From Accumulibacter sp. (GTDB taxonomy: Bacteria > Pseudomonadota > Gammaproteobacteria > Burkholderiales > Rhodocyclaceae): a DNA stretch of 40,720 nucleotides. Below are positions 1,130 through 21,841 of this stretch, in pieces. The number at the start of each line of letters is the position of its first letter. The first letter of the stretch is position 1. The translations under genes and the position numbers were made by a program. Location: positions 1 through 40,720 of the forward strand of contig JAISAZ010000121.1 of assembly GCA_031266435.1 (NCBI GenBank). Reading direction: 5' to 3'. Below the pieces are notes generated by a model. That model did no database searches and was not told the DNA's origin. It saw nothing but the letters and a program-made list of their open reading frames with translations.

Positions 1130-2299
1130 ATGAAAATAGCCATCGCCGGAGTAGGTTACGTCGGGTTGTCAAATGGCATTCTTCTGGCCCGGCATAACGA
1201 GGTGGTTTGCCTCGATATCCTCCCTGAAAAGGTGGAGATGCTGAATCGCAGGGAATCGCCGATCGAGGACGCCGAGATCGAAGATTTTCTCAAGAACAAG
1301 CCGCTGAATTTCCGCGCTACGCTGGATAAAGCGGACGCGTATCGCGGCGCGGAATATGTCATCATCGCGACCCCCACTGACTACGATCCTGAAACCAACT
1401 ATTTCAATACCCGATCGATCGAGGCGGTCATTCGCGATGTCTTGGCGATCAATCCGCAGGCGGTGATGGTGATCAAATCGACTGTTCCGGTGGGCTACAC
1501 GATACGAACGCGCGAGGCGCTGGGCGCGCAGAATTTGATCTTTTCGCCTGAATTCTTGCGCGAGGGGCACGCCTTGTACGACAACCTCCATCCATCGCGC
1601 ATCATCGTCGGCGAGCAATCGGCGCGTGCCGAGACGTTTGCCCGATTGCTGCGCCAAGGAGCGGAAAAACAGGACATCCCGACGCTCTTTACGGGGAGTA
1701 CGGAAGCCGAGGCAATCAAACTATTTGCGAACACGTATCTGGCTATGCGCGTCGCCTATTTCAACGAGCTGGATACTTATGCCGCGACGCATGGCATCGA
1801 TACACGCCAAATTATCGATGGCGTCTGCCTTGATCCGCGTATCGGGGGGCACTACAACAACCCCAGCTTTGGGTATGGCGGCTACTGCTTGCCGAAGGAT
1901 ACTCGGCAGCTCCTGGCCAACTACCGCGATGTGCCTCAAAACCTGATTCGCGCCATCGTCGACTCCACTACGACGCGCAAGGACTTTGTCGCGGATGAGA
2001 TCATCCGTGCAAAGCCGAGGGTCGTGGGTGTCTATCGCTTGATCATGAAAGCCGGAGCGGATAATTTCCGGGCGTCGAGTATTCAGGGGGTTATGAAACG
2101 AATAAAGGCCAAAGGTATCGAGGTGATTGTCCATGAGCCGATGTTCAAGGAGGACGAGTTTTTCCATTCGCAGGTTGTAAACGACTTGGCGGCTTTCAAG
2201 CGCACGGCGGATGTTATTGTCGCCAACCGCATAAGCGACGATCTCGCGGATGTGGCCGAAAAGGTCTATACGCGCGATCTCTTTGGCGGCGATGCGTGA
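1130..2299 (+). CDS. ugd: UDP-glucose 6-dehydrogenase
   Basis: Oxidises UDP-glucose to UDP-glucuronate with two NAD+, supplying uronic acid for capsule or exopolysaccharide. At 389 residues it matches the short Ugd type of E. coli. The N-terminal Rossmann motif is [10 protein letters not shown] (residues 7-16). The STVPVGYT motif lies at 117-124, Lys197 and Asn201 are in '[10 protein letters not shown]', and the catalytic Cys253 is in [11 protein letters not shown]. The C-terminal UDP-binding domain contains '[12 protein letters not shown]'. An AGGAAG-type ribosome site lies just before the ATG. Its stop overlaps the GTG start of the next glycosyltransferase, so the two are probably translated together. 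The presence of ugd implies glucuronate or a derivative in the polymer, which fits the nearby polysaccharide-lyase-like gene. Confidence 0.96.
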
Positions 2300-3381: not shown

Positions 3382-3932
3382 ACATCGTCGAAGAAACATT
3401 TGCCTTGAGACGGGAGTTGGTCGCATTGGCTGCCAAGCCTGAATGGGACTTGCTGACGCGCTACGATTTGTTGAGCAAGAAGCGGTTGCCGTGTTTTCGT
3501 GATCGCGCGTTTCGACTGATGAGGAAATGCTTGGCGGCAACAGGCTTGTTTCCGCCGCATGTGACGAAATATCCATGGCTACCGACCCTGAAGCATCTTC
3601 CCTTGGCAACGAATGCAAAAGCGCTGTTGATTTGGGCGCTCAAAGTGGAACGTACTGAACTACGCCAGATTTGCGAGGGGTTTTTGCGGCGATTGGAGGA
3701 TAACCCTCTCTTCGCGCCGGTATTGGTGACCGATGTGGCGGATTTTGCTTATTTCTCGCGTCTTGGGTGGTTGGTGGAGTATCTGCCGGAATTGAGCGGC
3801 GAGGGGCCATCCTATGTGGAAAGAAAGCGGTGTTACCTGGCTTGGCGCTATCGCGGCGCCTTGATTGTTGCCGCGTCCGCTGGTATGGCAAGCGAGACGG
3901 AGTGGAGCGCTTTGATGGAGGCGGGATTATGA
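3378..3932 (+). CDS. Unknown protein between a glycosyltransferase and a heparinase-like gene
   Basis: A 184-residue protein that I do not recognise. It starts with TTG in a TTGA overlap with the stop of the glycosyltransferase gene and ends in an ATGA overlap with the heparinase-like gene. This tight coupling argues that it is real. It is rich in Leu, Arg and Trp, has no signal peptide or transmembrane segment and shows no catalytic motif that I know. Segments such as 'FAYFSRLGWLVEYLPEL' and 'RKRCYLAWRYRGALIVAAS' suggest a helical fold. Its position between a transferase and a lyase points to a role in the same polymer pathway, perhaps as a partner of one of them, but this is inference only. 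Confidence 0.65.
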   Translation: MNIVEETFALRRELVALAAKPEWDLLTRYDLLSKKRLPCFRDRAFRLMRKCLAATGLFPPHVTKYPWLPTLKHLPLATNAKALLIWALKVERTELRQICEGFLRRLEDNPLFAPVLVTDVADFAYFSRLGWLVEYLPELSGEGPSYVERKRCYLAWRYRGALIVAASAGMASETEWSALMEAGL

Positions 3933-5785
3933 TCCCGTTTGAAGAACTCAATAGTAGTATGACCATGCTAAGCCTTCTTTCCAAGGCCGATGAGATTCTT
4001 CTAAATGGATGGCGATACCGGGGTTGTGAAGCGATCGACCTTAATCGACCCATCTCATGGCAATTGAAAAATCAAGAACAGCGTTCGCATAATTATCATA
4101 CTCACAGTCTGGGTGTGTTTGATATCCTGCTACGGGCGCATTCGCATTCGCAGGATGCAAAATATCTGGTCGTTTCGCTACGCGTTGCCTTGGATTGGAT
4201 TCGCCAGAATTCCGATCCGCAGGCTGTGGGGATATCGCCCTTTGCCTGGTACGACATGGCGGTGGGTTTACGTGCCTATCGGCTCGCCTATCTGTTCCAA
4301 GCCGCTGATCAGGCTGGATTGCTCGACGAGGACGCGCACGAAGCGATCTGGTCTTCGCTGGAGCAGCACGCCGCTTATCTTGCGGACGACGCGAACATTG
4401 CGTTTCACAATAACCACGGTTACTACCAAGTGGTCGGGCAACTCGCCTTGGGGCGGCGTTTTTCCAGCCTGTCATCACTTATGGCCCAGGCCCAGAAACA
4501 GGGCAGGGAGCGCCTGCAGCGCATACTGAGGCAACAATTTTCCCCGGATGGCGTGCATCAGGAGCATTCTCCGGGATATCACCACATGGTGTACTGCACC
4601 TTGAAAGCGCTGATTGATTCAGGGCTGGTGGAAAATGAAGAAACCATCGTCTTTGCCCGACGCATCGAAGAAGCTCTGTCCTGGTTCGTGCTGCCCAATC
4701 AGCATATCGTGAACTTTGGTGATTCAGACGACATAGCGTTTGCTCGTTCGCCGCGTGAAGCCGAAGACAAATGGGTGACGTCCGGGATGCGCTTCTGGGG
4801 CAGTGGTGGCAAGCTTGGGGAGCTATCCGGAGGCGTGGTGCGCGTTTTCCCGAATGACGGCTACTGGATAGCCAGGAAAGCGGGCGAGAATGCGCGGAAT
4901 CCGGCTGTGTACAGCTATCTGGCGCTCAACGCGGCTTTTCATTCCCGAACGCACAAACACGCGGACGACCTGAGCTTCGTCTGGTCCGACCGAGGCGCTA
5001 ATATTCTGGTGGATGCCGGACGTTACGATTATATCGGTAAGACCGAGCAAGGTTCGGAGCTATGGCTCGACGGTCATTGGTACTCCGATCCTTGGCGAGT
5101 GTATTGCGAGTCCACCAAGGCGCATAACGCTTTGGAATTTGATGGGCGAAACTCCCCACGAAAAGGGGTCGATCCCTATGGGAGCGCTCTTGGGCGTTGG
5201 GGAGAAGATGATTCCGGCTTGGTTTATGTGGAAGCCGAGTGTAAGTATTTTGACTCAATCCGCCATGCGCGTATGCTGTTTTTCATGCCTGGGCAATGGC
5301 TTTTGGTCTTTGACTGGTTCAACGACAACGCCAACGCGCAACACACGGTCAGGCAATGGTTCCATATTGGACACAAACTGCAACTGACACTGGACCAAGA
5401 GCAATATCTGCTTGCTGTGCCGGGTAGCCCGGAAATATTGCGTATTGTTTCCTTGCTCGGCTCGTCCCTTCCTTCACGCCCGTACATTGGCGAGGAATAT
5501 CCAGTGATTCAGGGGTGGTGGTCTGGCAAGGCGCTGGATGTTGTTCCAAATTATGCCTTCTGTCATGAACTGTCCGGGAAGAGTAGCGGCGCATACGCGA
5601 CCTTGTTCAGTTTTTCGAACCAATTGCAGGCGGACACTGAGTGGTCGAAAGTTGATGCTTCCGGGCGTAAAGGGCAGTTCCGATGGGAGGACCAATCCGG
5701 CGTTCATGAGCTTCGTTTTGAACGACCCGTCGAGGGAGATTTGGCAGTCAAATATGTTTTGCGCGCGCGAGTTCGTGCAGCCTGA
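3929..5785 (+). CDS. Heparinase II/III-like polysaccharide lyase
   Basis: A 618-residue protein of the heparinase II/III superfamily, enzymes that cleave uronic-acid-containing polysaccharides by beta-elimination. The N-terminal alpha/alpha toroid region has 'NNHGYYQVVGQLAL' and 'FSPDGVHQEHSPGYHHMVY', where family members carry catalytic Asn/His/Tyr residues. The C-terminal beta-sandwich begins with 'HSRTHKHADDLSFVWSD' and 'DAGRYDY', the conserved metal- and substrate-binding block. No clear signal peptide is seen. The frame is open back to 3767, but ATG 3929 overlaps the upstream stop as ATGA and opens with a normal N-terminus, so it is the better start. Inside a biosynthetic locus such lyases trim or edit the polymer; ugd in the same operon is consistent with a uronate polymer. 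Confidence 0.88.
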   Translation: MIPFEELNSSMTMLSLLSKADEILLNGWRYRGCEAIDLNRPISWQLKNQEQRSHNYHTHSLGVFDILLRAHSHSQDAKYLVVSLRVALDWIRQNSDPQAVGISPFAWYDMAVGLRAYRLAYLFQAADQAGLLDEDAHEAIWSSLEQHAAYLADDANIAFHNNHGYYQVVGQLALGRRFSSLSSLMAQAQKQGRERLQRILRQQFSPDGVHQEHSPGYHHMVYCTLKALIDSGLVENEETIVFARRIEEALSWFVLPNQHIVNFGDSDDIAFARSPREAEDKWVTSGMRFWGSGGKLGELSGGVVRVFPNDGYWIARKAGENARNPAVYSYLALNAAFHSRTHKHADDLSFVWSDRGANILVDAGRYDYIGKTEQGSELWLDGHWYSDPWRVYCESTKAHNALEFDGRNSPRKGVDPYGSALGRWGEDDSGLVYVEAECKYFDSIRHARMLFFMPGQWLLVFDWFNDNANAQHTVRQWFHIGHKLQLTLDQEQYLLAVPGSPEILRIVSLLGSSLPSRPYIGEEYPVIQGWWSGKALDVVPNYAFCHELSGKSSGAYATLFSFSNQLQADTEWSKVDASGRKGQFRWEDQSGVHELRFERPVEGDLAVKYVLRARVRAA

Positions 5786-5821: not shown

Positions 5822-6034
5822 ATGCATGAACAATTTATACCAGAAAGCATATCATTTAGAATTAATGATGTCGGAACAATTACAGCAATAAATTATTGCT
5901 CTGCCAAAAAATATGGATTTATTGATTTCCTGAGTAGTTGCATCCAGAAGGCAAGGTATATCATCACAAGGCCGTTTCGGAGCGGTCTGGCCGATTGCAG
6001 CGTTATTGTCCTCTTTGATCATTTTGCGGGTTGA
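5822..6034 (+). CDS. Small unknown ORF in an AT-rich junction
   Basis: A possible 70-residue protein starting ATG and ending in a TTGA overlap with a TTG codon of the next large gene. The DNA from about 5790 to 6030 is AT-rich compared with both neighbours. The translation has no recognisable motif, signal peptide or clear membrane segment. It may be a remnant left where two gene blocks were joined, or it may not be translated. The main support is the stop/start overlap, an arrangement also seen at other junctions in this locus. Confidence 0.3.
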   Translation: MHEQFIPESISFRINDVGTITAINYCSAKKYGFIDFLSSCIQKARYIITRPFRSGLADCSVIVLFDHFAG

Positions 6035-8427
6035 ACATGTTTTACTTTGCCACAAAAGCCCAAACTCTCGAATCATTGCGTCCGGTTCTGCGCTTATCGA
6101 CCATCCCGCAAAGCTTTTCCTTTGCCGCGACTCGATGGATCGACGAACGTGGGGCGGTTCTCGCGGAACTGACGGGAATCTTTCCCGAAGGGTACTTGAT
6201 CGTCCGCAGCAGCGCCGTGGGTGAGGATGCGTACGCGGAGTCGCGGGCCGGCGTCTACGAAAGTATCCCCTTTGTCTCTGCTGTGGACGGCCAAGCCTTG
6301 GCGGGAGCGATCGACACGGTGATCGCCTCGTATGCGCGACGCAAAAGCGCGCGATCCTCCGACGATCTCGTCCTTGTGCAGCCGATGGTCGACAACATCA
6401 GCATGGCAGGCGTCGTCTTCACGCAGGAACTGCAAAATGGCGCACCGTATTATGTGATCAATTACGACGATATTTCCGGTCGTCATGATGCGGTGACCAG
6501 CGGCGCCGACCTGACGCGAACCCTGCTGATCCACCGAGGCTATGAGCGCCACATGCGCTCGAGTCGGTTCTCGCGGCTGATCGAAGCCGTGCAGGAGATA
6601 GAAGACGTCGTGGGTCTGCCGGGGATCGATATCGAGTTCGTCGTCAATACGGCGGAAGAAGTTTACATCGTTCAAGTACGCCCCTTGGCGGTACGCCGCA
6701 ACTGGAACCGCTCGACGGCGCGCCGCGTGGATCAGGCACTCGACCAGACGCGCGAATTCGTTCGTGACCGCCTTCGTCCCCTGCCGAACATTGTTGGGGA
6801 TCGCAGCCTTTACAGCCTGATGTCCGATTGGAATCCTGTCGAAATGCTCGGAGCCGCGCCGCGCCCTCTGGCTCTTTCGCTCTACCGGCACCTGATCACC
6901 GACAGCATCTGGGCAGAAGCGCGGGCCGGCATGGGCTACCGTGATCTTTCCGGGCGTTCTCTGCTCATCGAGTTCAACGGGCGTCCCTATATCGACGTAC
7001 GAGAAAGCTTCAATTCTTTTTTGCCCGCATCGCTTCCCGTTCCGATCGCGGAAAAACTCGTGAACGCGTGGCTGGATCGTTTGCAGGAACACCCGGAACT
7101 GCACGACAAAGTCGAATTTGAAGTGACGCTGACGACGCACGTGCCCGGTTTTGGCCGCTTGTACGGCGGCGTTTTGGCGGATTGGGGCCTCGGTTCAGAG
7201 GAACGCGGCGAGTTTGAAGGCTGCCTGAAAAATTTGACGCTGAATGTTCTCGCCGAGCGAGGGCAATTACTCGAAGATGAATTAGCCAAAACAATCCCAT
7301 TGCAACGGGTGGGCGCTTCGGACTGTGGACGCAATACGGACTGCCTGTATCAAGCGAAACAGTTGCTGACGTTGTGCCGCGAGTACGGAACGAAACCCTT
7401 CTCCGTCCTTGCGCGTTGCGCTTTCATGGCCGAGGCGGTCTTGCGAGCCTTGGTCGCCGGAGACGCGATTCTCCCGGAGCGGGCCATGGCTTTCCGCGCG
7501 TCCGTACGCACGGTACTCGCGGATTTTCTGGAAGACATGCGCCGAGTGCGGGAAGGCGGGATCGGCGAGAAGGAATTTTTTGACCGCTACGGTCATTTAC
7601 GGCCAAGCAGTTACGACATTCTTTCGCCGCGTTACGATCAGCGTCAGAATTTTTTGAGCCTCTTGGAAACGGAAAATGCCGTGCGAAACGAGGCATACGA
7701 ATTCAATCTTTCCGGCGAAGAACGGCGCGCCGTGGCAGCCTTGCTCGACGCCGAGGGCTACGCGCTGTCCCCGGAAGACCTGTTCCGTTTCATGAGTCGG
7801 GCCATCGCTGGGCGCGAAGAGGCGAAATTCAGGTTCACCCGCGCCCTGAGTCAGGCTCTGGAAGAGATTGCCCTCTGGGGCGAAGAGCTTGGCTTGAGCC
7901 GTGACGAGCTTTCGTTCCTGCGTCTGGAAGATTTATGGGGTTTCCTTTCTTCCAGCCCGATGCTTCCCTGGGAAGACCTGATGCGCTCAAAAGCGTGGGC
8001 CAACAGGGAGAATCATGAAATTTGTCAGGCGATTTGTTTACCCTATGTCATTTGCGGAGTCGCCGATGTGGATATCGTCCCGCTGCATAAAAGTCGACCC
8101 AATTTCATCACCAAGGGCGCGGTACGGGGGCTGGCACTGTATCTGACGGGGCATGAAAACGTGGCGGAATTGGATTTCAAAGGCGCCATCGTTTTTATCG
8201 AAAGCGCCGACCCCGGCTTCGACTGGATTTTTTCCCGCCCGATCGTTGGGCTGGTGACCAAATACGGCGGTGCCAATTCGCATATGGCGATCCGCTGCGC
8301 TGAACTGCGAATGCCCGCCGCGATCGGCTGCGGCGAACAGCTTTTTGAAAGCCTCAAGCATTCCCGTGAGGTCGGGTTGGACTGTGCGACCGAGCGCCTG
8401 TCCGCGCAAAGGAGTCCGCAATGGTAA
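6031..8427 (+). CDS. Putative L-glutamine kinase (PEP-synthase-like), phosphoramidate pathway
   Basis: A 798-residue protein with the layout of PEP synthase and pyruvate phosphate dikinase. The N-terminal ATP-binding domain has 'VRSSAVGEDAYAESRAGVY' and ends near residue 230 with 'VYIVQVRPL'. A long central region follows. The C-terminal mobile domain has 'GGANSHMAIRCAELRMPA', where His751 is the expected phosphohistidine. The PEP/pyruvate-binding barrel of true PEP synthases is absent. This is the organisation of C. jejuni Cj1418, which phosphorylates the amide nitrogen of L-glutamine as the first step to capsular phosphoramidate. Three further homologues of that pathway follow directly. The start may be TTG 6031 (TTGA overlap) or ATG 6037. 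Without the neighbours, only 'PEP-utilizing enzyme' could be claimed. Confidence 0.8.
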   Translation: MNMFYFATKAQTLESLRPVLRLSTIPQSFSFAATRWIDERGAVLAELTGIFPEGYLIVRSSAVGEDAYAESRAGVYESIPFVSAVDGQALAGAIDTVIASYARRKSARSSDDLVLVQPMVDNISMAGVVFTQELQNGAPYYVINYDDISGRHDAVTSGADLTRTLLIHRGYERHMRSSRFSRLIEAVQEIEDVVGLPGIDIEFVVNTAEEVYIVQVRPLAVRRNWNRSTARRVDQALDQTREFVRDRLRPLPNIVGDRSLYSLMSDWNPVEMLGAAPRPLALSLYRHLITDSIWAEARAGMGYRDLSGRSLLIEFNGRPYIDVRESFNSFLPASLPVPIAEKLVNAWLDRLQEHPELHDKVEFEVTLTTHVPGFGRLYGGVLADWGLGSEERGEFEGCLKNLTLNVLAERGQLLEDELAKTIPLQRVGASDCGRNTDCLYQAKQLLTLCREYGTKPFSVLARCAFMAEAVLRALVAGDAILPERAMAFRASVRTVLADFLEDMRRVREGGIGEKEFFDRYGHLRPSSYDILSPRYDQRQNFLSLLETENAVRNEAYEFNLSGEERRAVAALLDAEGYALSPEDLFRFMSRAIAGREEAKFRFTRALSQALEEIALWGEELGLSRDELSFLRLEDLWGFLSSSPMLPWEDLMRSKAWANRENHEICQAICLPYVICGVADVDIVPLHKSRPNFITKGAVRGLALYLTGHENVAELDFKGAIVFIESADPGFDWIFSRPIVGLVTKYGGANSHMAIRCAELRMPAAIGCGEQLFESLKHSREVGLDCATERLSAQRSPQW

Positions 8428-8711
8428 TATGGCTGGTTGGGCTTTCGGGTGCCGGCAAAAGCACTTTGGCCAAAGAAATCGTCGCGCTTGCGCGAGAACG
8501 GATTCCTAACGTCGTATTGCTCGACGGCGATAGCTTGCGCGAGGCTTTGGGAAACGATCTGGGGCACACGATCAAGGATCGGAAGCGGAATGCGGAAAGA
8601 CTCTGCGGACTCGGAAAGCTTCTTGACGGCCAAGGGATCCACGTCGTGTGCGCCGTGCTTTCACTATTCCCCGAATCACGCGAATGGAACCGGAAGCACC
8701 TCAAAAGCTAG
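8421..8711 (+). CDS. APS-kinase-like CDP-phosphoramidate kinase, truncated
   Basis: A 96-residue P-loop kinase fragment of the adenylylsulfate kinase fold. The Walker A is GLSGAGKST (residues 7-15), followed by 'LLDGDSLREAL', 'DRKRNAERLCGLGKLL' and 'SLFPESREWNRKHL'. In C. jejuni the homologous Cj1415 phosphorylates the 3'-hydroxyl of cytidine diphosphoramidate. Family members are about 170-200 residues, and this one stops at a TAG about half way, before the lid region and the C-terminal substrate-contact residues. None of the missing part is visible in another frame downstream, and the next ATG comes one base after the stop. This suggests a deletion rather than a simple frameshift. An AAAGGAG ribosome site precedes the ATG and the start overlaps the previous gene by 7 bases. 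Probably inactive unless completed elsewhere. Confidence 0.75.
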   Translation: MVIWLVGLSGAGKSTLAKEIVALARERIPNVVLLDGDSLREALGNDLGHTIKDRKRNAERLCGLGKLLDGQGIHVVCAVLSLFPESREWNRKHLKS

Positions 8712-8712
8712 C

Positions 8713-9360
8713 ATGAGTTACGTGGAAAATATGCCTTCTTGTATAAATATCGCCGTCACCCAACGCTGCGTTCGCCTTGACGACCGCGCCGAGCAGCGCG
8801 ATTGCCTCGACACGAGAATCACGCTGTTTCTCGAAGCCTGCGGTCTTGTCTGCATCCCCATGCCGACGCTCGTTGCGGACCCTGCTGGGTGGCTCCGCGC
8901 CGCCGGCATCCGCGGGCTACTCCTTTCCGGAGGCAACGACCTCAAGGAGACCGGCGAGGGCGATGTCTCACCGGAGCGGGACGCTTTGGAGCATGCGTTG
9001 CTGGGCTTGGCGCAAGAGAAAAACCTTCCAGTATTCGGTGTCTGTCGGGGCTTGCAGATCATCGCGAGCCACTATGGCGCGCGCGTCGTTCCGGTGAAGG
9101 GCCACGTCGGGCAGCCACACGTCATACAGGGCGCCTCTTATCCGAAAGCCGTGGTCAATTCTTTTCATAACTACGGCGTTTATGCTTCTGATATGCCAGA
9201 ACGGCTGTGTTCTCTGGCGCAGTCCGAAGACGGTATCGTCGAAGCCCTGCGAGTTTCCGGTCTTGCCCAAATGGCGGTCATGTGGCATCCAGAGCGAGAA
9301 CAGGGCTTTGCCTCCGCTGATATTGCCTTGGTCAAGAAATTTTTCAACGTGCAAGGATGA
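8713..9360 (+). CDS. Class I glutamine-amidotransferase-fold hydrolase, phosphoramidate pathway
   Basis: A 215-residue protein of the gamma-glutamyl hydrolase/GATase-1 fold. It shows 'LLLSGGNDL', the nucleophile elbow 'FGVCRGLQ' with Cys111, and 'MWHPERE' supplying the His-Glu part of a Cys-His-Glu triad. The start may be ATG 8713 or ATG 8731 (MPSCINIAVTQR, preceded by GTGGA); the second fits the family N-terminus better. In C. jejuni the homologue Cj1417 hydrolyses gamma-glutamyl-CDP-phosphoramidate to glutamate and cytidine diphosphoramidate. Other members of the fold cleave gamma-glutamyl-putrescine or folate, but the flanking glutamine kinase and cytidylyltransferase genes support the phosphoramidate role. 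It ends 3 bases before the next start. Confidence 0.82.
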   Translation: MSYVENMPSCINIAVTQRCVRLDDRAEQRDCLDTRITLFLEACGLVCIPMPTLVADPAGWLRAAGIRGLLLSGGNDLKETGEGDVSPERDALEHALLGLAQEKNLPVFGVCRGLQIIASHYGARVVPVKGHVGQPHVIQGASYPKAVVNSFHNYGVYASDMPERLCSLAQSEDGIVEALRVSGLAQMAVMWHPEREQGFASADIALVKKFFNVQG

Positions 9361-9363
9361 AAC

Positions 9364-10131
9364 ATGCAAGCGATTATTCTCGCCGCAGGGCAGGGCACTC
9401 GCCTACGCCCACTTACCGATGACCTCCCCAAGTGCCTTGTGCCCGTCGGCGCGCAAGCGCTTCTGGATCGGCATCTGGCTGTACTCGCCGCAGGCGGCGT
9501 TTCTCCCGTGACCGTCGTGGGTGGGTATCGGGCCGACTGCCTCGAAAATCGTGGATTCAGCTTGCTGCGTAATCCGGATTTTGCCTCGACGAACATGGTC
9601 TGGTCCTTGCGATGTGCCTTTGACACTTTTGCGAGCGGTTGTGTGCTGGCCTACGGCGATATCGTATATTCCCCGCCGGTACTGGAAGCCTTGTTGCGCC
9701 ATCCGGGGGACCTCTGCGTGGTCGTAGACCGGGGTTGGGAAGCCTACTGGAATGTCCGTTTCGATTCCCCTCTGGACGACGCCGAAACGCTGCGCGTCGC
9801 GCCCAGTGGCGTCTTGGTCGAAATAGGAAATAAAGCAAAAACGACCGACGAAATCCAGGGGCAGTATATCGGGCTGATGAAATTCAGCGCCCAAGGAGCG
9901 AAGATCGTTTGCGACCTGGTGGAAAAAACCTTGGCGGAGAACGGGACGCTCAACGGCAAAGCCGTGGAGAAGGCTTATACGACGGACTTGCTGCAAGAAC
10001 TCATTACGCTGGGCCACACCCTGCACCCCGTCTGGATCGACGGTGGCTGGGCGGAGATAGATACGCTTTCGGATATTCCCGTTGCCGAGGAACGCATGCG
10101 TTACTGGGCTAATATCCCCTCTAGCTTTTAA
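9364..10131 (+). CDS. Nucleotidyltransferase, putative CTP:phosphoglutamine cytidylyltransferase
   Basis: A 255-residue sugar-phosphate-type nucleotidyltransferase with a Rossmann-like NTP-binding domain. The signature LAAGQGTRLRPLTDDLPK is at residues 6-23. Asp in 'AYGDIVY' is a likely metal ligand, and 'NPDFASTNMVWSL' and 'GGWAEIDTLSDI' are typical of the choline-phosphate/phosphoglutamine cytidylyltransferase branch. In C. jejuni, Cj1416 joins CTP and L-glutamine phosphate, giving the substrate of the hydrolase encoded just upstream here. The 3-base spacing shows they share a transcript. It could instead make CDP-choline or NDP-sugar, but no choline kinase or sugar kinase is adjacent. Confidence 0.82.
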   Translation: MQAIILAAGQGTRLRPLTDDLPKCLVPVGAQALLDRHLAVLAAGGVSPVTVVGGYRADCLENRGFSLLRNPDFASTNMVWSLRCAFDTFASGCVLAYGDIVYSPPVLEALLRHPGDLCVVVDRGWEAYWNVRFDSPLDDAETLRVAPSGVLVEIGNKAKTTDEIQGQYIGLMKFSAQGAKIVCDLVEKTLAENGTLNGKAVEKAYTTDLLQELITLGHTLHPVWIDGGWAEIDTLSDIPVAEERMRYWANIPSSF

Positions 10132-10155: not shown

Positions 10156-10284
10156 ATGGGAGCTAGTATCAAATCTATCGATATTGCGTGCGGTAGCGGA
10201 CGCGATAGTTTTTTCTATTTCCCTGCAGTGTCTACCTCAAGGGCAGTACCTTTAGACAGTAGTAGGTTAGGTAGAGCGCGATGA
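10156..10284 (+). CDS. Possible 42-residue ORF with a methyltransferase-like motif
   Basis: A short open frame in the otherwise empty stretch after the cytidylyltransferase gene. It starts ATGGGAGCTAGT and ends in an ATGA overlap with the deacetylase start. It encodes 'SIDIACGSGRDSFFYF', which looks like SAM-methyltransferase motif I, but nothing else of such an enzyme follows. It could be a remnant of a methyltransferase gene or chance. No strong ribosome site is seen. Confidence 0.2.
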   Translation: MGASIKSIDIACGSGRDSFFYFPAVSTSRAVPLDSSRLGRAR

Positions 10285-11246
10285 GCAGGGAACGTTATGC
10301 ATTGATTACGGTCGATACCGAAGCGCAGCCCAAGCGCGCAGCCCAGAATCACGTTGAACACCTGATCTGGGGTAAGCATGAGAACGGAACCGCCGGTATT
10401 CGTGAAATGTGCGCCGCAGTGGGCGAGCTTGGTTCCAGATTGGTTTTTTTCGTCGATTCATGCGGAGTCTATCTTCACGGCGAACCTTTTGCAGAGGCGG
10501 TACGCTGGCTGGTGCATTCCGGGCACGACGTCCAATTGCATACCCATTCAGAGTTTTTGCCAGATTCGTTCTGGTTGAAGAATGGCTTTGCCGCTCGTCC
10601 GCACATGTTGAACGAGTACGACGAGGGAAGATCGGCTTTTACGATCCGGTATTTCAGCGAATATCTGGCGCGGATAACGGGTAAGCCGATCACGGCGTTT
10701 CGCGCCGGTTCGTTTCGATGGAATGTCGGTACTCTCAGGGCGCAAGGCGAGCTTGGCATTTCTTTATCCTTCAATAACTCGATGCGAGCGTTGCTCGATG
10801 GTGTTTGTCCTCATGCAGAAGCAACGAATCACCCTTTTGTTTGGTCGAATGGCGTTATAGAAGTCCCCATCACGGAAAGGAGATTCCCAACCTTCGGGGA
10901 TGACGTGTGGTGGGGAAGGCTGGCTTTTCCCTCGTCTCAGCGCTATCGCGATCCTCCTTGGCGTGTCTTGTGGCCGTATACCCTGGGCAGAGATATTCAG
11001 GTACTGGTCGTCTTGCTGCACTCGTGGTCGCTTTTGTATTGGGATGAAAACGGGTACGCGGTTTATCGGGACGACAAGCGTCACGAAGATTTCAGGAAGC
11101 TGGTGCGTCGGCTGGCGAAGGACTACGACATCATTACGACCGAGGATTTCCTCGATCTTCATGCGCATGGAAAAATCGTGACGACGCATACGGTCGATGT
11201 GAGCAGGGCGGAGATGAAGCCGTCGCTTGGGAAGAAGAAGGCTTGA
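10281..11246 (+). CDS. NodB-like polysaccharide deacetylase family protein
   Basis: A 321-residue protein with the short motifs of carbohydrate esterase 4/NodB-like enzymes: 'ALITVDTEAQ' with the metal-type Asp near residue 12, 'GHDVQLHTHSEF' with paired His near 86-88, 'TAFRAGSFRW', and a late 'LVVLLHSWSL' that supplies a His. There is no signal peptide, so it may act on a lipid-linked or nucleotide-linked sugar in the cytoplasm. In polysaccharide loci such proteins remove N-acetyl groups from the repeat unit. The next gene begins in a TTGA overlap with its stop, so they are co-translated. The substrate is unknown. Confidence 0.78.
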   Translation: MSRERYALITVDTEAQPKRAAQNHVEHLIWGKHENGTAGIREMCAAVGELGSRLVFFVDSCGVYLHGEPFAEAVRWLVHSGHDVQLHTHSEFLPDSFWLKNGFAARPHMLNEYDEGRSAFTIRYFSEYLARITGKPITAFRAGSFRWNVGTLRAQGELGISLSFNNSMRALLDGVCPHAEATNHPFVWSNGVIEVPITERRFPTFGDDVWWGRLAFPSSQRYRDPPWRVLWPYTLGRDIQVLVVLLHSWSLLYWDENGYAVYRDDKRHEDFRKLVRRLAKDYDIITTEDFLDLHAHGKIVTTHTVDVSRAEMKPSLGKKKA

Positions 11247-12583
11247 GCGTGCTTGCAGATGCTTATCGGGTTCTGTTGCGCGAGCCGTGGCTGGCGTTTA
11301 GTCGCTGGCTGACTGTTCGGTCACTGGAGAGACGTTTGCGCGTAGCGCCCGCTCCCTTGGCCTACGTGCCGGAAGGGGCTGGTCTGCTTTACGTGGCGGC
11401 GAGCGCGTTGCCGTATCATACGAGCGGCTATACGATCCGGACGCACGAAATCATTCGGGCGTTGATTCTGGCGGGAGGACGTGTGCATTCGCTGACACGC
11501 TCGGGTTATCCCGGAGATCGCCTGGATCGTTCGTGCGACGCCAGGAGTAATGAGACGAAGGTCGGGGAGGTGTGTTATTTGCATGTGGCCAAGCCAGCCA
11601 ACAATCGACCGGTTATTCTATACGGATTACAGGCTGCGCCGGTGATCGCGGCGGTGGCGGCGCGGCATCGGGTGGCGGTGATTCATGCTGCGTCGAATCA
11701 TGTGAATGCTTTGCCGGCCTTGCTCGCGGCGCGACAACTGGGTATCCCTTTCCAATATGAGATGCGCGGTTTGTGGGAACTCACCCGTGTGTCCCGCCAG
11801 CCTGATTTCGACGGTTCGCAGACGTATAAACAGGGTTTGCAGTTGGAAAACCTGGTGGCCCGGCATGCCGATCGCCTGTTCGTGATCTCTGGGCAGTTGG
11901 GGCGATACGTCGCCGAACATTGGGGCATTCCGGCCGAGCGCATTGCTTTGCTACCGAACTGTGTCGATCCCGATCGTTTTGCGGTGGCGGCTCCGGGGGA
12001 GGTGGAGGCGTGTAGCATCGGTTACGCGGGTTCGTTGATCGGCTATGAGGGCCTGGATACTTTGATCGAGGCGCTTGCCCGTCTGAAGGAGAGCGGAGTG
12101 GCGGTCCGGGTCCGTATCGTTGGTGACGGCGAGGCGCGCAGTTCTCTTGAATCCCTGGTCAGGCGGCTCGAGGTCGAGGATTGCGTGCAGTTTATGGGCA
12201 GACAAACGCCGGATGTCGCTCGCGAGGTGATTCGACGGTGCGCCGTCGTGTGTTTGCCGCGCAAGCCTTATGAGGTGTGCCGGGTCGTTCCGCCGATCAA
12301 ACTGGTGGAAGCCTTGGCGATGGGAAAATCGGTGATCGTTCCCGATCTGCCGGTGTTTCGAGAGGAACTCGGGGAGAATCCAGCCGGGTGGTTTTTCAGG
12401 GCGGGGGATTCGGCAGACCTGGCGAAGGTCCTTGGGGCGGCGCTGGGAAATCTTGATATTCTGAGGGCCTTGGGTGCGCGTGCGAGAGAATATGCTGTCT
12501 CGCAACGGTGTTGGAGCAAATTTGTCGGTAATATGTTGCCGGTGGTGCAGGGGGGTAGGGGCAGTGGAGGGACGGAGCCATGA
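11243..12583 (+). CDS. GT4-family glycosyltransferase
   Basis: A 446-residue retaining GT-B glycosyltransferase. The N-terminal domain includes 'PYHTSGYTIRTHEIIRAL', typical of group 1 transferases that bind a membrane acceptor. The C-terminal donor domain has 'IALLPNCVDPDRF' followed by 'IGYAGSLIGYEGLDTLIEAL', and the E-x7-E type region is 'PPIKLVEALAMGKSVIVPD'. No transmembrane helix is seen; such enzymes sit at the inner membrane surface. The start is TTG in a TTGA overlap with the deacetylase stop. It adds one sugar of the repeat unit; which one cannot be read from the sequence. Confidence 0.88.
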   Translation: MSVLADAYRVLLREPWLAFSRWLTVRSLERRLRVAPAPLAYVPEGAGLLYVAASALPYHTSGYTIRTHEIIRALILAGGRVHSLTRSGYPGDRLDRSCDARSNETKVGEVCYLHVAKPANNRPVILYGLQAAPVIAAVAARHRVAVIHAASNHVNALPALLAARQLGIPFQYEMRGLWELTRVSRQPDFDGSQTYKQGLQLENLVARHADRLFVISGQLGRYVAEHWGIPAERIALLPNCVDPDRFAVAAPGEVEACSIGYAGSLIGYEGLDTLIEALARLKESGVAVRVRIVGDGEARSSLESLVRRLEVEDCVQFMGRQTPDVAREVIRRCAVVCLPRKPYEVCRVVPPIKLVEALAMGKSVIVPDLPVFREELGENPAGWFFRAGDSADLAKVLGAALGNLDILRALGARAREYAVSQRCWSKFVGNMLPVVQGGRGSGGTEP

Positions 12584-12636
12584 GCGCTTGCGCATAATGA
12601 TGAAAGAATTTATATGATCGCCTTTGGGGAGCTTGA

Positions 12637-13722
12637 ATGGTCGGCAGGGTCATTAGAAGAATAAGCTCGCTTTTCTATGAGCATCCGACATTTCCAGAGG
12701 ATGTTGCGCATCATGGCGACTTCGTTCGCTTGAAGATTGCGCTGGTCGCGGATTATTTCACGAGCGATTGCTTGTCGGTTGAATGCCGAGTGCGTGCCCT
12801 GACGCCCGCGAATTTCAGGGAGCTGATCGACGAGTGGAAGCCGGATATGGTCTTTGTGGAATCGGCGTTTCATGGTGTGAACGGCGCGTGGCGCTATGAG
12901 TTGGCGAAGCAGCCGAAATGGTTGCGCCTCACCAGGCCGACGGCGATCTATCGCTTGGTCGAGTTTGCCAAGGCGCGCGGGATACCGACTGTTTTCTGGA
13001 ATAAGGACGATGATGTTTTTTTCGACGCTTTCATCGATGTGGCGAAGGCTTTCGATTTCGTGTTCACGGCCGACGCGGGTTGTGTGGCGCGCTATCGGCA
13101 GCGGGTGCCGGGGCATGTGGCGGTTAATGCGCTGGCCATGCCTTACCAACCGGCTTTCCACGAATTTACCGGTTTCGATTTCACGCGTGGCGAGGCTTGC
13201 TTTACGGGGAGCTATTATCGCCGAATCCTCGACGAGCGTCGGCATTTCCTCGATATGATGTTCGACGCTTGCGAGGATGCCGACATCTGCTTGAACGTTT
13301 TCGACCGGAATCATGATCGTTTATCGCGACACTTTGAGTTTCGTTTTCCCAAAAGGCCGCGCTTGCGCGTGCATGGTCGCGTGCCCTACCGTGAAACGGC
13401 CGGTATCTACAAGGCGCACGTGGCGTCGCTCAACGTGAATTCGATCATGGACTCCGAGACGATGTGTTCGCGGCGTCTCCTCGAAATCCTGGCGTGCGGC
13501 GGTATTGCGGTGACGAACCCGAGCCGCGCGGTCGATCGTCACTTCCGTGACTATTGCCACGTGGTGAGTTCGCGCGAGGAAGCGGCGGAGGTCCTGGCTC
13601 GGTTGCGCGCCGGCCCGTCGCGGGAGGATAAGGAGCGGGCCGAGGCGGGTGCCGTATACGTCAGGAAGAACCATACTTGGGCGCATCGGCTGGAGCAAAT
13701 CTGCGCTGTCGTAGGCATTTAA
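12637..13722 (+). CDS. CgeB-like glycosyltransferase
   Basis: A 361-residue protein similar in layout to the CgeB/glycosyltransferase group 1 branch. An N-terminal Rossmann-like domain has 'KPDMVFVESAFHGVNGAW' and 'IPTVFWNKDDDVFFDAF'. A C-terminal domain has 'HGRVPYRETAGIYKAHVASL' and 'SRRLLEILACGGIAVTNPS', the usual nucleotide-sugar-binding end of these proteins. A GGGGAG ribosome site precedes the ATG. It lies 53 bases after the GT4 gene and 13 bases before the GT2 fusion gene, in one transcription unit. Its donor and acceptor are unknown. Confidence 0.75.
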   Translation: MVGRVIRRISSLFYEHPTFPEDVAHHGDFVRLKIALVADYFTSDCLSVECRVRALTPANFRELIDEWKPDMVFVESAFHGVNGAWRYELAKQPKWLRLTRPTAIYRLVEFAKARGIPTVFWNKDDDVFFDAFIDVAKAFDFVFTADAGCVARYRQRVPGHVAVNALAMPYQPAFHEFTGFDFTRGEACFTGSYYRRILDERRHFLDMMFDACEDADICLNVFDRNHDRLSRHFEFRFPKRPRLRVHGRVPYRETAGIYKAHVASLNVNSIMDSETMCSRRLLEILACGGIAVTNPSRAVDRHFRDYCHVVSSREEAAEVLARLRAGPSREDKERAEAGAVYVRKNHTWAHRLEQICAVVGI

Positions 13723-13735
13723 ACGGCGCGACGCG

Positions 13736-15973
13736 ATGTTTCAGTGGCTTTCCTATTTCGTCCAAGCCGTTTTTTTGTTGGTCGTGGTTTATTTTGCGCT
13801 GTATGTGGCGCTGGAATTGCGCGTCCTCTTGATTTCACGTCGGGTTGAGCGCCGTAAACTGAGCGAGGTGGCCGTGCCGACCGAAGTGGGAGGCGAGTTT
13901 CATCCTCTGGTCAGCGTGCTGCTACCCATCTGTAATGAATCGACCGTGGTCGAGCGCTTGATCGATGCCGCCTGTCGCTTGCACTACCCGGCGAATGCCT
14001 TGGAAATCCTGGTGCTCGACGATTCGACCGACGGCACGTCGAAACTGGCACGGGCCAAGGTCGAGTATTACGCTGCGCGGGGCGTCGATATTCGGCTTAT
14101 CCGGCGCCAGGACCGGAAGGGTTACAAGGCGGGGAATCTGGTCAATGGAATCCGGTGCTCGTCCGGAGAGTTCTTCGCCATCTTCGACGCGGATTTCGTC
14201 CCGCCCGAAGACTTTCTGTTGAAAAGTATCCCGTGTTTCAAGGATGCCAGCTTGGGTTTTCTTCAGACGGGGATCGGCTACGAGAATCGCGACAAGTCGT
14301 TCTTGACCCGCTTTCAGGCCATGGAAATGGGGCATCAGCAATATGTTACGGTGGGTTTGAGCGAGGATGGGGATATGGCGTCCTTGAGCGGCAGTTCCTG
14401 CGTCTGGCGCAAGGCGTGTGTGGAGGCTTTGGGTGGGTGGAACGCTTCGACGGTCACGGAGGATGTGGATCTCGGCTACCGGGCGCAGTTCGGCGACTGG
14501 AAGTATGCCTATCTGCGTGATGTGGTCTCCATGTCGGTCCTCCCCGAGACCATCAGCGCGTTTCGCGTCCAGCGCGAGCGTTGGGGGCGCGGCTTGATCC
14601 ACAGTGCTTTCAAGCATGTCAGGCAGATGTTCGGTCAACCCATGCCGTTGATGAAGCGCATGCACGCGGTATCCATGATGTTTTCGTCCGCGTTGCTGGC
14701 TTCAATTTATGTTCTTGTGCTTCTGAGCCTGCCGTTGAATTATTTGATCGACTTTCGAGGCGCCAGCGTTCAGTGGGCGGCGCTGTCTTTCTTCGCGCTT
14801 GTCACCGTTTGGGCGCTCGATAACGCTTTTGGAGCGCGCAGGGGCGCGCGGCTCGCAGACAGGCCGGGAATCGTGCGGACGCTTTGGGATACTTATCTGT
14901 ACGTCACCATGTTCCCACCGATGGCGTGGTACTACTTTGCGGGTGGCGTCCGGGCGCTGTTTGGGGTGTATGGCGACTTTCACCGAACCCCGAAGGGCAG
15001 GGACGAGCGCCAGTCGCATCTGCCGCGTATCAATACGGTGTTGTATGCGGGGGAACTTTTTACTCTCGCATATTCGGCGCTGGCGATCCTGGTGATTTTC
15101 CGGGAAGGAAATTACTTTCTGCTTCCACTGAACGTGACCGTGTGTGTGGGGTTCGCCAGGGTATTGTATTGCTCCTGGAAAGAAAGGCACGAGCATGCGG
15201 AGGATTGTGATTCGAGACTTGACCGGGTTTTGATTACCGGTGCGACCAGCGCTATCGGCGCGGCGTTGGCGCTCGAATACGCTCAGCGGGGCGCGACGCT
15301 TTATCTGCACGGCCGCAATGCGGTAAAGCTGGCCGAGGTGGCCGAGCGTTGCCGGGCGAAGGGCGCCGAGGTCGAGACGCAACACATGGATCTGCGTGAT
15401 TTTTCCGCTTTGCAAGACTGGCTGAAATCTTTGGGGCCGCTGGACTTGGTGATCGTCAATGCGGGCATGAACACGCATGTCGGCGCGACCGGCGAACCCG
15501 AGCCTTGGGATGCGGTCGAAGCTTTGCTGGACGTCAATCTGAAGGCTGCGATGCTCATCGTTCAGTCGGTATTGCCGGCCATGCGGTCTCGGGGTTGCGG
15601 TCAGATCGCCCTGCTCAGTTCGCTGGCGGCGTATTTCGGTTTGCCCGTGACGCCGACGTATTGCGCGACCAAGGCCGGAGTCAAGGCTTATGGCGAGGCG
15701 CTGCGCGGTGGCTTGTCGCCGGAAGGGATTCGGGTCAATGTGATCATGCCGGGCTACGTCAAGTCGCCCATGTGCGATGACATGCCGGGGCCGAAACCTT
15801 TTATTTGGCTACCTGATCGTGCGGCCAAGGCGATTCGGCGAGGACTCGAGCAAAACAAGGCACGCATCAGTTTCCCTTTCCCATTGAATTGGGGAAGCTG
15901 GTGGCTCGCGGTATTGCCGGCTTCCATTTCTACCTGCATCGTGCGCTGGCTGGGCTTTGGTCGTGGTCATTGA
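13736..15973 (+). CDS. GT2 membrane glycosyltransferase fused to a short-chain dehydrogenase
   Basis: A 745-residue two-domain protein. Residues 1-30 form a membrane helix. A cellulose-synthase-like GT2 catalytic domain follows with DDS (95-97), DAD (151-153), TED (241-243) and QRERW (279-283). About four to five membrane helices lie between 313 and 480. From about residue 497 there is a complete SDR domain: cofactor loop TGATSAIG (501-508), NAG (575-577), Ser near 628, and YxxxK at Tyr642-Lys646. A hydrophobic tail follows. The GT2 part would polymerise or transfer sugar at the membrane; the SDR part would reduce or oxidise a sugar or lipid. The fusion is one continuous frame. It overlaps the next gene by 17 bases. 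Confidence 0.88.
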   Translation: MFQWLSYFVQAVFLLVVVYFALYVALELRVLLISRRVERRKLSEVAVPTEVGGEFHPLVSVLLPICNESTVVERLIDAACRLHYPANALEILVLDDSTDGTSKLARAKVEYYAARGVDIRLIRRQDRKGYKAGNLVNGIRCSSGEFFAIFDADFVPPEDFLLKSIPCFKDASLGFLQTGIGYENRDKSFLTRFQAMEMGHQQYVTVGLSEDGDMASLSGSSCVWRKACVEALGGWNASTVTEDVDLGYRAQFGDWKYAYLRDVVSMSVLPETISAFRVQRERWGRGLIHSAFKHVRQMFGQPMPLMKRMHAVSMMFSSALLASIYVLVLLSLPLNYLIDFRGASVQWAALSFFALVTVWALDNAFGARRGARLADRPGIVRTLWDTYLYVTMFPPMAWYYFAGGVRALFGVYGDFHRTPKGRDERQSHLPRINTVLYAGELFTLAYSALAILVIFREGNYFLLPLNVTVCVGFARVLYCSWKERHEHAEDCDSRLDRVLITGATSAIGAALALEYAQRGATLYLHGRNAVKLAEVAERCRAKGAEVETQHMDLRDFSALQDWLKSLGPLDLVIVNAGMNTHVGATGEPEPWDAVEALLDVNLKAAMLIVQSVLPAMRSRGCGQIALLSSLAAYFGLPVTPTYCATKAGVKAYGEALRGGLSPEGIRVNVIMPGYVKSPMCDDMPGPKPFIWLPDRAAKAIRRGLEQNKARISFPFPLNWGSWWLAVLPASISTCIVRWLGFGRGH

Positions 15974-17489
15974 TGTCGCATTCGTTTCGGTGCTTGCGGC
16001 ATCGCTGGCCGGCTTGGTGCTCATCGTCGTGATCGAACGATGGATGACGCCGTGTCCGCCGTTTGTACGTCCGTGGGCGTCGTGGGCTTTGCAGGGTGGG
16101 TTGTGGTTGTTGACCCACGCCATTCTAACCCTGGTTCTGGGGCGCTCCTGGTTTGCCGCCGCCACCGTGTCGGCGTTTCTGCTGATGCTGGTGCTGGTGA
16201 ATAACGCTAAAGTCATGGCTTTGCGCGAGCCTTTCGTTTTTCAGGATTACGAATATTTCACCGACGCGATTCGGCATCCGCGCCTCTACATTCCATTTTT
16301 GGGTTGGTGGAAATTCCTGAGCGCGGCAGCGGGGTTTGTATTGGCCGTGGTGATCGGTTTCTTGGGCGAGGCGGCACCTGCCCAACGTTTCGTTTGGTCG
16401 GGGCAACTCGGCGGGATTACGGTGACGTTCGTCGGGGGCGCGCTGTTGCTGCTCGCCGGAAACTGGCGAAACTGGAAAACACTCCCTGTCAGTTTCGAGC
16501 CGATACGGGATCTGCGTGCTCTGGGTTTTTTGGCCTACCTCTGGCGGTATGCTCAAGAGGAAAGTACGCCGCTGACAATCGCTTCTCCTTTCGACTTTCT
16601 TCCCGCGAGGCACCCGGAAGACGGTTTGCCGCATCTGCTTGCAATACAAAGCGAATCGTTTTTCGACCCGCGACCGCTGTATCGGGGGATTCGTCCCGAA
16701 GTGCTGGCTGAGTTCGACCGTCTCAAGGGCGACTCCGTGACACACGGCAAGTTGAAGGTTCCGGCCTGGGGGGCCAATACGGTGCGTACCGAGTTCGCCT
16801 TTCTTTCCGGGATCGGCGAAGACAAACTGGGCGTCCATCGTTTCAACCCCTATCGTGCCGTTGCCGCCGGTTACGATACCCTGTCGCTGGCGTCTTACCT
16901 GAAACGTCTGGGTTATCGTACGGTCTGCATTCATCCGTATCCGGCGAGTTTCTATCGGCGCGATCGCGTGTACCCGCGTCTGGGCTTTGATGAATTTCTG
17001 GATATTCGCGCGTTCGACGACACGATGCGCTTTGGCCATTACATCGGTGATACCGCCGTGGCCGACAAGGTTCCCGCACTCTTCCAGGATGCGTCAACGC
17101 CGGTGTTTGTTTTTGTCATTACGATGGAGAATCACGGGCCGCTGCACCTCGAACGAGCGTCTCCTTTGGATGCCAGTGTATTGTATTCCACGCCGCCTGC
17201 GGAGGGTTGCGACGACCTGACGATTTACCTGCGCCATCTGCGCAATGCGGATCGAATGATCGCTCAATTGCGCCAATCGCTCGACCGATGCGAGCGCCCC
17301 GCAAGTTTGTGCTGGTTCGGCGACCATGTGCCGATCATGCCTTCAGCGTATGAGACCCTCGGCGCGCCGAATGGTGAAGTCGAGTATGTCTTTTGGAACA
17401 ATCGGAAGACGAACCCCGGGGAAGAGCAGGGGCTTCATGCGCATGAGCTGTGCTTGAGTTGGCTGCGTGCGGCCGGCGTCGTCCAGTAG
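15957..17489 (+). CDS. LtaS/OpgB-type membrane phosphotransferase (sulfatase fold)
   Basis: A 510-residue membrane protein. Four to five hydrophobic helices occupy residues 5-170 (for example around 8-27, 44-62, 66-82, 119-137 and 151-168). A periplasmic alkaline-phosphatase-fold domain follows. It has 'LAIQSESFFDP' with the metal Glu233, 'WGANTVRTEF' with the likely nucleophile Thr275, 'FVITMENHGP', and 'WFGDHVPIM' with the Asp-His metal ligands. Relatives (LtaS, OpgB) move phosphoglycerol from lipid to polymer; others move phosphoethanolamine. At the end of a polysaccharide operon it should add a phospho-substituent to the polymer. The start is uncertain: TTG 15957 or GTG 15963, both inside the end of the previous gene. 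Confidence 0.82.
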   Translation: MVVVIDVAFVSVLAASLAGLVLIVVIERWMTPCPPFVRPWASWALQGGLWLLTHAILTLVLGRSWFAAATVSAFLLMLVLVNNAKVMALREPFVFQDYEYFTDAIRHPRLYIPFLGWWKFLSAAAGFVLAVVIGFLGEAAPAQRFVWSGQLGGITVTFVGGALLLLAGNWRNWKTLPVSFEPIRDLRALGFLAYLWRYAQEESTPLTIASPFDFLPARHPEDGLPHLLAIQSESFFDPRPLYRGIRPEVLAEFDRLKGDSVTHGKLKVPAWGANTVRTEFAFLSGIGEDKLGVHRFNPYRAVAAGYDTLSLASYLKRLGYRTVCIHPYPASFYRRDRVYPRLGFDEFLDIRAFDDTMRFGHYIGDTAVADKVPALFQDASTPVFVFVITMENHGPLHLERASPLDASVLYSTPPAEGCDDLTIYLRHLRNADRMIAQLRQSLDRCERPASLCWFGDHVPIMPSAYETLGAPNGEVEYVFWNNRKTNPGEEQGLHAHELCLSWLRAAGVVQ

Positions 17490-21424: not shown

Positions 21425-21615
21425 GGCAGCCGAATAAAAAAGAGGTACAAAGCGAAGATCGCTTGATGAATCTTCGCCATGACCGCACACAAGCCTGATC
21501 GCGTTCCATCGCGCCGCCCACGCACGGCGGCGAGCGACCCGGTGCGATTGGGGACGCCTCGCACCCGAATCCACGCTGAAACATCTGCGCTGATCGCCCT
21601 GGCACGCTTCTTGCT

Positions 21616-21665
21616 ACACACACACACACACACACACACACTCTCTCTCTCTCTCTCTCTCTCTC
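21616..21665 (+). repeat. (AC)n(CT)n dinucleotide microsatellite
   Basis: Thirteen AC units run directly into about twelve CT units, 50 bases in all, ending about 176 bases before the autotransporter ATG. Such long pure tracts are rare in bacterial chromosomes and mutate by slippage, and they are often tied to phase-variable surface proteins. The autotransporter start at 21842 lies outside the tract, so slippage would alter promoter or leader spacing rather than the protein frame. Confidence 0.9.
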
Positions 21666-21717
21666 ATAGCTCGCATCGCCGCGAGCGTCCGCGCCTTTAC
21701 GCGCCGAGCCTCGTTCC

Positions 21718-21737: not shown

Positions 21738-21841
21738 CGTTTTCCGTCATCAATGCTCCGCGCCTCGGCTTGTCTTGCCAAGCCGACGGAAAGGCGGGGT
21801 CGAATTCCCGAAATCACTCAACACTTCATAAAGGAGTCGTC

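Follow-up and report, generated by a model that had tools for sequence, protein, structure and literature searches.

The 40,720-nucleotide contig JAISAZ010000121.1 of an Accumulibacter species, analysed over its whole length and here called the window, carries a cassette of genes of the families that serve O-methyl phosphoramidate (MeOPN) formation in Campylobacter jejuni. Our preferred reading, to which we give a probability of about 0.6 on comparison of sequences, is that this cassette belongs to a kinase-containing type, that its 3'-kinase and the companions of that kinase were lost by internal deletion, and that cytidine diphosphate (CDP)-phosphoramidate is probably still made. The cassette consists of the following features:

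6037..8427, + strand: L-glutamine kinase homologue, with ATP-grasp/PPDK_N and phosphohistidine swivel domains
8421..8711, + strand: 5' part of a CDP-phosphoramidate-kinase-like P-loop kinase; 96 codons, with the C-terminal ~75 residues missing
8709..8730, + strand: the break; kinase codon 96 and the hydrolase ATG at 8731 are 22 bases apart, a count that includes the TAG stop
8731..9360, + strand: gamma-glutamyl-CDP-amidate hydrolase-like class-I glutamine amidotransferase; Cys in GVCRGLQ, His/Glu in WHPERE
9364..10131, + strand: CTP:phosphoglutamine cytidylyltransferase-like nucleoside triphosphate (NTP) transferase; PF12804

The four open reading frames (ORFs; 6031-8427, 8421-8711, 8713-9360 and 9364-10131) are tightly packed on one strand. 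The glutamine kinase comes first and overlaps the kinase by 7 bases; the hydrolase follows after a gap of 1 base, and the cytidylyltransferase after a further gap of 3. TTG 6031 is a possible start for the glutamine kinase ORF (798 amino acids), ATG 6037 a better one; for the hydrolase, ATG 8731 is better than the alternative ATG 8713. An earlier, sequence-only reading of this DNA had described four consecutive, tightly coupled genes with a phosphohistidine block, a P-loop, GVCRGLQ and LAAGQG as their motifs, and both genes and motifs are present in these ORFs. It had also called the cassette complete and matched all four genes to the C. jejuni pathway. That match finds support for three genes, most firmly for the glutamine kinase and more tentatively for the hydrolase and the cytidylyltransferase, but the cassette is not complete: where a cytidine diphosphoramidate kinase of Cj1415 type would be expected at full length there is a 96-codon stub, and the neighbours of this kinase in related clusters are gone. 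Judged by sequence, the diagnostic gene set of the pathway is present, but not whole.

The P-loop ORF covers 96 residues at the N-terminal end of a protein whose usual length is ~170. It matches models of adenosine 5'-phosphosulfate (APS) kinases over their first half alone: the best model, PRK05541 (91.9 bits), aligns at positions 8-101 of 176, and Pfam APS_kinase at positions 3-97 of 152 only. In an alignment of 62 kinases, the stub retains all 16 conserved columns of the N-terminal half and none of the six of the C-terminal half; because the N-terminal half is so well kept, the break looks recent. A model of the intact kinase from a related locus (L029; mean predicted local distance difference test score 90.9) contains strands at residues 2-6, 31-34, 74-79, 97-103 and 144-147. 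Two of these five (97-103 and 144-147), together with four helices (from residue 106 on), fall beyond the break. Going by this model, the 96-residue piece, without two of the five core strands, is most likely non-functional.

To place the truncation among related cassettes, we used a comparison set of 97 loci that included the first 24 kb of the window and came to 94 after de-duplication (L061, L120 and L122 were dropped as same-contig duplicates of L016, L023 and L029). ORFs were called mechanically and protein families were formed by clustering; the loci are the best 80 of at least 547 relatives plus others, and proportions among them are no census. The kinase is present in 65 of the 94 loci. 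In 64 of these its ORF is at least 165 amino acids long, in the window 96, and the truncation is unique among the 65 kinase-bearing loci compared. This count sets 65 loci against 29; the companion counts given below set 64 kinase loci (window included) against 30 others, the kinase of L088 having been missed by clustering.

Seven loci share the gene order of the window (L020, L022, L023, L029, L035, L040 and L121), one of them (L029) from the same genus. All seven have a full kinase, in ORFs of 170-205 amino acids, and 1485-2550 bases separate the hydrolase start from the position that corresponds to kinase codon 96, as against 22 in the window. The intervening stretch holds the remainder of the kinase and then either families D43 and FMT7 (L020, L022, L023, L040) or family S42 (L029, L035, L121), with the methyltransferase MT26 in five of the seven. 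FMT7 is formyltransferase-like; S42 is weakly GDSL-like, below the Pfam cut-off. From family and place, the removed genes would serve transfer and methylation. The ancestral cassette would thus have run from glutamine kinase and kinase through further genes to hydrolase and cytidylyltransferase, and would have lost an internal stretch of ~1.5-2.5 kb. A check of positions 8380-9000 for repeats that might have caused the deletion found an 11-base direct repeat within the 5' part of the kinase and three imperfect inverted pairs only, and nothing spanning the junction beyond these weak pairs. Two resemblances close to the break were judged too short to use: downstream of the stop, bases that look like the following kinase strand when read in a different frame, and five residues in common with MT26.

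The other three genes look intact by their conserved residues. The product of 6031-8427 matches NF004508/PRK05849 at 840 bits over model positions 9-785 of 789 (cut-off 501), and phosphoenolpyruvate (PEP) synthase models score 44.8 bits at most. Its Pfam domains are PF01326 and PF00391, and it retains 98 of 101 conserved columns, among them the swivel-domain His in GGANSHMAIR. We take Cj1418 to be a member of the NF004508/PRK05849 model. By family, then, 6037-8427 would encode a Cj1418/PRK05849-type glutamine kinase, with activity predicted. The hydrolase keeps 26 of 26 conserved columns, and its best NCBIfam model is the gamma-glutamyl-CDP-amidate hydrolase NF045546 (123.7 bits; next 46); since the cut-off of 250 is not reached, automatic naming by this model would miss it. 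The cytidylyltransferase keeps 40 of 43 columns. It has an NTP transferase fold and is linked to the other cassette genes; its best PDB relative by sequence is the CTP:phosphocholine cytidylyltransferase 1jyk, and no pathway-specific model was found among the 25 best of its 30 NCBIfam matches. Before de-duplication, the glutamine kinase occurs in 97 of the 97 loci, the cytidylyltransferase in 91 and the hydrolase in 86. The full-length 840-bit family match, together with the recurrence of these genes as a set elsewhere, indicates that the cassette is more than a chance assembly. The sequence-only reading had warned that standard annotation would hide the large ORF, and this is borne out by 14 plasmid relatives: 12 are named 'PEP-utilizing enzyme' or 'PEP/pyruvate-binding domain-containing protein', one 'pyruvate, phosphate dikinase', and one is unannotated.

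In C. jejuni, the pathway leads from glutamine, ATP and CTP to CDP-phosphoramidate 3'-phosphate, according to the accessible text of PMC11800397. By analogy of family, the 6037-8427 product would convert glutamine and ATP to N-phosphoglutamine, which would be coupled to CTP before cytidine diphosphoramidate is released. If the kinase piece is dead, the 3'-phosphorylated donor would not be made. Because the companion genes are absent as well, the decoration has probably been lost, has stopped at CDP-phosphoramidate or relies on enzymes that we do not recognise.

The organism's own genome was searched for replacements. A search for a second complete cassette kinase recovered, apart from the stub, nothing but a CysC-like APS kinase encoded on contig 20 (200.8 bits to PF01583). 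MT26 gave a best E value of 0.156, S42 gave no match in a search without a positive control, FMT7 gave two weak matches only (26% and 28%), and no PF04464 protein was found. These searches, aimed at the kinase, MT26, S42, FMT7 and PF04464, revealed no dedicated replacement.

These searches bear on the possibility that the deletion is an assembly artefact and that the organism has an intact kinase and companions in an ordinary kinase-containing cassette. The genome is a draft (2.66 Mb in 121 contigs, 95.77% complete) of which the window is one entire contig, and the stub retains every conserved residue of its half, as an artefact would allow. The rest of the kinase, MT26 and S42 were nevertheless not found elsewhere in the assembly (with the S42 search limited as above), and the break lies inside the contig, with a stop codon, a usable hydrolase start and no junction-spanning repeat in 8380-9000. 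We regard an artefact as improbable, though it deserves to be kept in mind.

A second alternative is that the kinase is not needed: a transferase of the locus, so far unrecognised, would take CDP-phosphoramidate itself as its donor, as we propose for cassettes that have no kinase. Such cassettes exist, and the two groups of loci have largely different companions. Families MT6 (26/64 kinase loci), MT26 (7/64) and S42 (5/64) occur in 0/30 of the others, and FMT7 in 22/64 against 2/30; conversely, T14 and F17 occur in 16/30 and 15/30 of the kinase-free loci and in 0/64 of the kinase loci. Several of the 30 are contigs ending near the gene, and L088 is wrongly among them. T14 of L084 belongs to PF04464, the CDP-glycerol glycerophosphotransferases, a fold that would suit an enzyme using a CDP donor directly. 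Fold does not divide the two groups cleanly: family f19, whose member in L015 is also PF04464, is present in 12/64 kinase loci. The glutamine kinase ORF of the kinase-free type has ~1020 amino acids, and its N-terminal part aligns to the cytidylyltransferase (tblastn), with no Pfam NTP transferase domain in the one long ORF scanned (L089). Three loci (L088, L093, L095) have such long ORFs alongside a kinase. Among 11 kinase-free genomes searched for a kinase, four gave no match (E 1e-6) and seven only matches of 30-36% identity; two control genomes gave 56% and 100%.

Together, these data suggest that two donor types occur in nature. The window fits neither type, having lost the parts of the kinase branch and lacking those of the kinase-free branch. 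Although three of its genes look intact, its genome has no PF04464 protein, and none of the counted companion families (T14, F17 and others) is found within its first 24 kb; we think it unlikely that the cassette works without a kinase. A bolder version would make the truncation a switch, in which the glycan is decorated directly from CDP-phosphoramidate by a glycosyltransferase-like enzyme of the locus and the donor that resembles 3'-phosphoadenosine 5'-phosphosulfate (PAPS), 3'-phospho-CDP-phosphoramidate, is abandoned, much as the kinase-free cassettes seem to manage without it. On a broader view, phosphorus-nitrogen (P-N) groups would be common on prokaryotic surfaces and would come from two kinds of donor, with a separate set of transfer genes for each. 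We offer this as speculation with long odds against it.

Several observations on the two groups stand apart from the window. Kinase-free loci with glutamine kinase ORFs of ~1000-1075 amino acids, T14 and F17 are L062, L064, L071, L075, L078, L080, L084, L085, L086, L089, L092, L094 and L099; F17 occurs without T14 in L074 and L097, and T14 without F17 in L056, L058 and L059. F17 is formyltransferase-like, below the Pfam cut-off in the one scanned. L075, titled as a Bifidobacterium breve metagenome-assembled genome (MAG), groups inside Solirubrobacterales-type cassettes, and the contig is probably mis-binned. Beside the kinase (for example L047:912-2357 and L040:12881-14348) lies a pair formed by D12 or D43, which is mostly helical and has no Pfam match above cut-off, and the formyltransferase-like FMT7; one or more of D12, D43, FMT7 and their fusion D47 occur in 28/64 kinase loci and 2/30 others. 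The fusion is found in six loci and is absent from the window. In a Foldseek search with its AlphaFold model, the best PDB matches were formyltransferases, covering the second part only. The pair may be a transfer module. L027, L052 and L055 have glutamine kinase homologues with no hydrolase or full cytidylyltransferase within flanks of 2.5 to 10 kb per side, and L027 and L052 carry NeuB-, DegT- or short-chain dehydrogenase (SDR)-type sugar genes; possibly these loci put N-phosphoglutamine to another use.

Replacement of the kinase in trans by the contig-20 enzyme, with a remote transferase completing the pathway, seems very unlikely. This enzyme is full-length and 34% identical to an intact cassette kinase, but it has what we take to be the sequence pattern of a sulfate-assimilation APS kinase and adjoins a predicted sulfotransferase-like gene, and the searches for MT26, S42 and FMT7 found no companion genes. 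Least probable of all is that the four genes encode a PEP synthase, an APS kinase, a gamma-glutamyl-putrescine hydrolase and a sugar nucleotidyltransferase with unrelated roles: their folds and Pfam domains match these families, the hydrolase falls below its model cut-off and the cytidylyltransferase has the generic matches described, but the pathway families outscore the rest (840 against 44.8 bits, 123.7 against 46), by which the PEP synthase, ordinary APS kinase and PuuD-type hydrolase identities were ruled out, and three of the genes co-occur in most of the 97 loci.

Returning to loss by internal deletion, several points weigh against it. The row nearest to the stub is L096, which has a different gene order; L020, L023, L040 and L022 follow. 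In the glutamine kinase tree (94 rows), the window pairs with a KSB1 sequence (L020; Shimodaira-Hasegawa-like approximate likelihood-ratio support of 95, long branches) rather than with the same-genus L029, which falls in a group that excludes the window. The hydrolase lies nearest to a kinase-free group of Solirubrobacterales-type rows, in a tree that does not resolve its placement. Since these three affinities differ, the ancestral order is inferred rather than observed in a near relative. Conserved columns deviate in the glutamine kinase (3/101) and the cytidylyltransferase (3/43), compared with 1 and 0 in the median locus; seven other loci deviate more than the window in these columns. That three genes look intact speaks for some continued use of CDP-phosphoramidate. 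A glycosyltransferase-like gene of the window could be a transferase, because the MeOPN transferases of C. jejuni were first annotated as glycosyltransferases (accessible text of PMC9561416). Finally, the contig could be misassembled. In favour of the deletion, the nearest cytidylyltransferase rows, L023, L029, L121, L022 and L020, are five of the seven related clusters, and the four rows that follow L096 for the stub belong to them as well. The patchy affinities of glutamine kinase, stub, cytidylyltransferase and hydrolase suggest that cassette parts passed between lineages.

Glutamine kinase homologues are far from confined to Campylobacter. A genome_contigs scan with six homologue queries found at least 547 relatives, bacterial and archaeal, and the best 80 come from Pseudomonadota, Thermodesulfobacteriota, Bacteroidota, Verrucomicrobiota, Actinomycetota, Patescibacteria, archaea and others. 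No Campylobacterota appear in the titles of these 80, of the 14 plasmid records that carry a homologue or of the one phage record. The latter, MT837632.1 ('Bacteriophage sp.', 9540 bases, human faeces), has at 676-2988 a homologue covering 98% of the query at 33% identity, which is either phage-borne or bacterial contamination. NF004508 is carried by 9/300 genomes of the window's order and 15/398 of its phylum, and by 0/14 control genomes in both samples; P0001 gave 12/199 genomes in the family sample. The window's own genome is counted in the order, phylum and family figures. One (G462) of five other same-genus genomes listed carries a homologue.

The claim that the locus offers a new context outside Campylobacter does not survive these figures or the literature. 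The accessible text of PMC3907429 cites phosphoramidate without the methyl group for the lipopolysaccharide of Xanthomonas campestris and Shewanella, that of PMC8042644 also has the Xanthomonas group, and that of PMC12660748 proposes a MeOPN-like cluster in archaeal Borgs. The setting is already known, and its novelty is weak. No survey of such cassettes was seen among the matches listed in searches of an open-access library. Our own count of relatives matters more than the single locus: the enzyme that a 2022 review calls C. jejuni-specific (accessible text of PMC9561416) has relatives in both bacteria and archaea, at least 547 in all. With cassettes that do and do not include a kinase, and largely different companions in each, the question of phosphoramidate transfer becomes testable with purified enzymes. 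In the accessible text of PMC3907429, 4 of 13 Campylobacter strains with cj1416-cj1418 orthologues are without MeOPN, most likely, in its authors' view, because transferases are missing. The Accumulibacter organism should not be cited as a maker of MeOPN-like polysaccharide without chemistry.

The cassette lies within a polysaccharide locus, whose other genes are:

1130..2299, + strand: UDP-glucose 6-dehydrogenase; PF03721/PF00984/PF03720, NF011631 at 682 bits (cut-off 757)
3767..5785, + strand: heparinase II/III-like protein; PF07940, PF16889
10281-11246, + strand: weak deacetylase-like protein, opening the rest of the locus (10281..17489)
11243-12583, + strand: glycosyltransferase family 4 (GT4) protein
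12637-13722, + strand: glycosyltransferase-like protein
13736-15973, + strand: GT2-SDR fusion in a single ORF; GT2 domain related to cellulose synthases, plus a short-chain dehydrogenase
15957-17489, + strand: sulfatase-fold protein weakly like LtaS

The dehydrogenase (1130-2299) is 78% identical over 389 amino acids to that of L078 (Methylobacillus), a kinase-free cassette locus. Directly upstream of the glutamine kinase is an AT-rich 70-codon ORF (5822-6034) that matched only itself in the loci examined (best other E value 0.18). Positions 1-1000, with a methyltransferase-like gene close to the contig end, have a G+C fraction of 0.39-0.40, compared with 0.47-0.63 over the next 20 kb. At 21479-24832, a 1117-amino-acid ORF with passenger-associated-transport repeats (PF12951) probably encodes an autotransporter.

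The closest known systems include the intact cassettes of Propionivibrio sp. MAG Bin178 (L029/L122), Methyloversatilis (L023/L120), Denitromonas (L022), KSB1 (L020), L035, L040 and L121. Their gene order is that of the window, whose five nearest cytidylyltransferases all come from this set, as do four of the five kinases nearest to the stub; they differ in having a full kinase and 1.5-2.55 kb before the hydrolase where the window has 22 bases. The kinase-free cassettes (L084, L089, L094, L071) share its glutamine kinase, hydrolase and cytidylyltransferase, but combine a ~1020-amino-acid glutamine kinase ORF with T14 and F17, whereas the window has 798 amino acids and neither family in its first 24 kb. 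Cj1415-Cj1418 of C. jejuni, which serve MeOPN capsule groups, would represent the four families found here, as judged through domains and best-scoring models rather than sequences. Both cassettes stand in a polysaccharide locus. In the window, however, the kinase is cut to 96 residues, the gene order is different, no Cj1421/Cj1422-type transferase is recognised (a distinction drawn without direct comparison), and the locus has ugd and heparinase-like genes. The archaeal Borg cluster, as described in the accessible text of PMC12660748 and likened by description only, resembles the window in that a surface-glycoconjugate region contains a gene reported as CTP:phosphoglutamine cytidylyltransferase-like; unlike the window, it resides on extrachromosomal elements of archaea.

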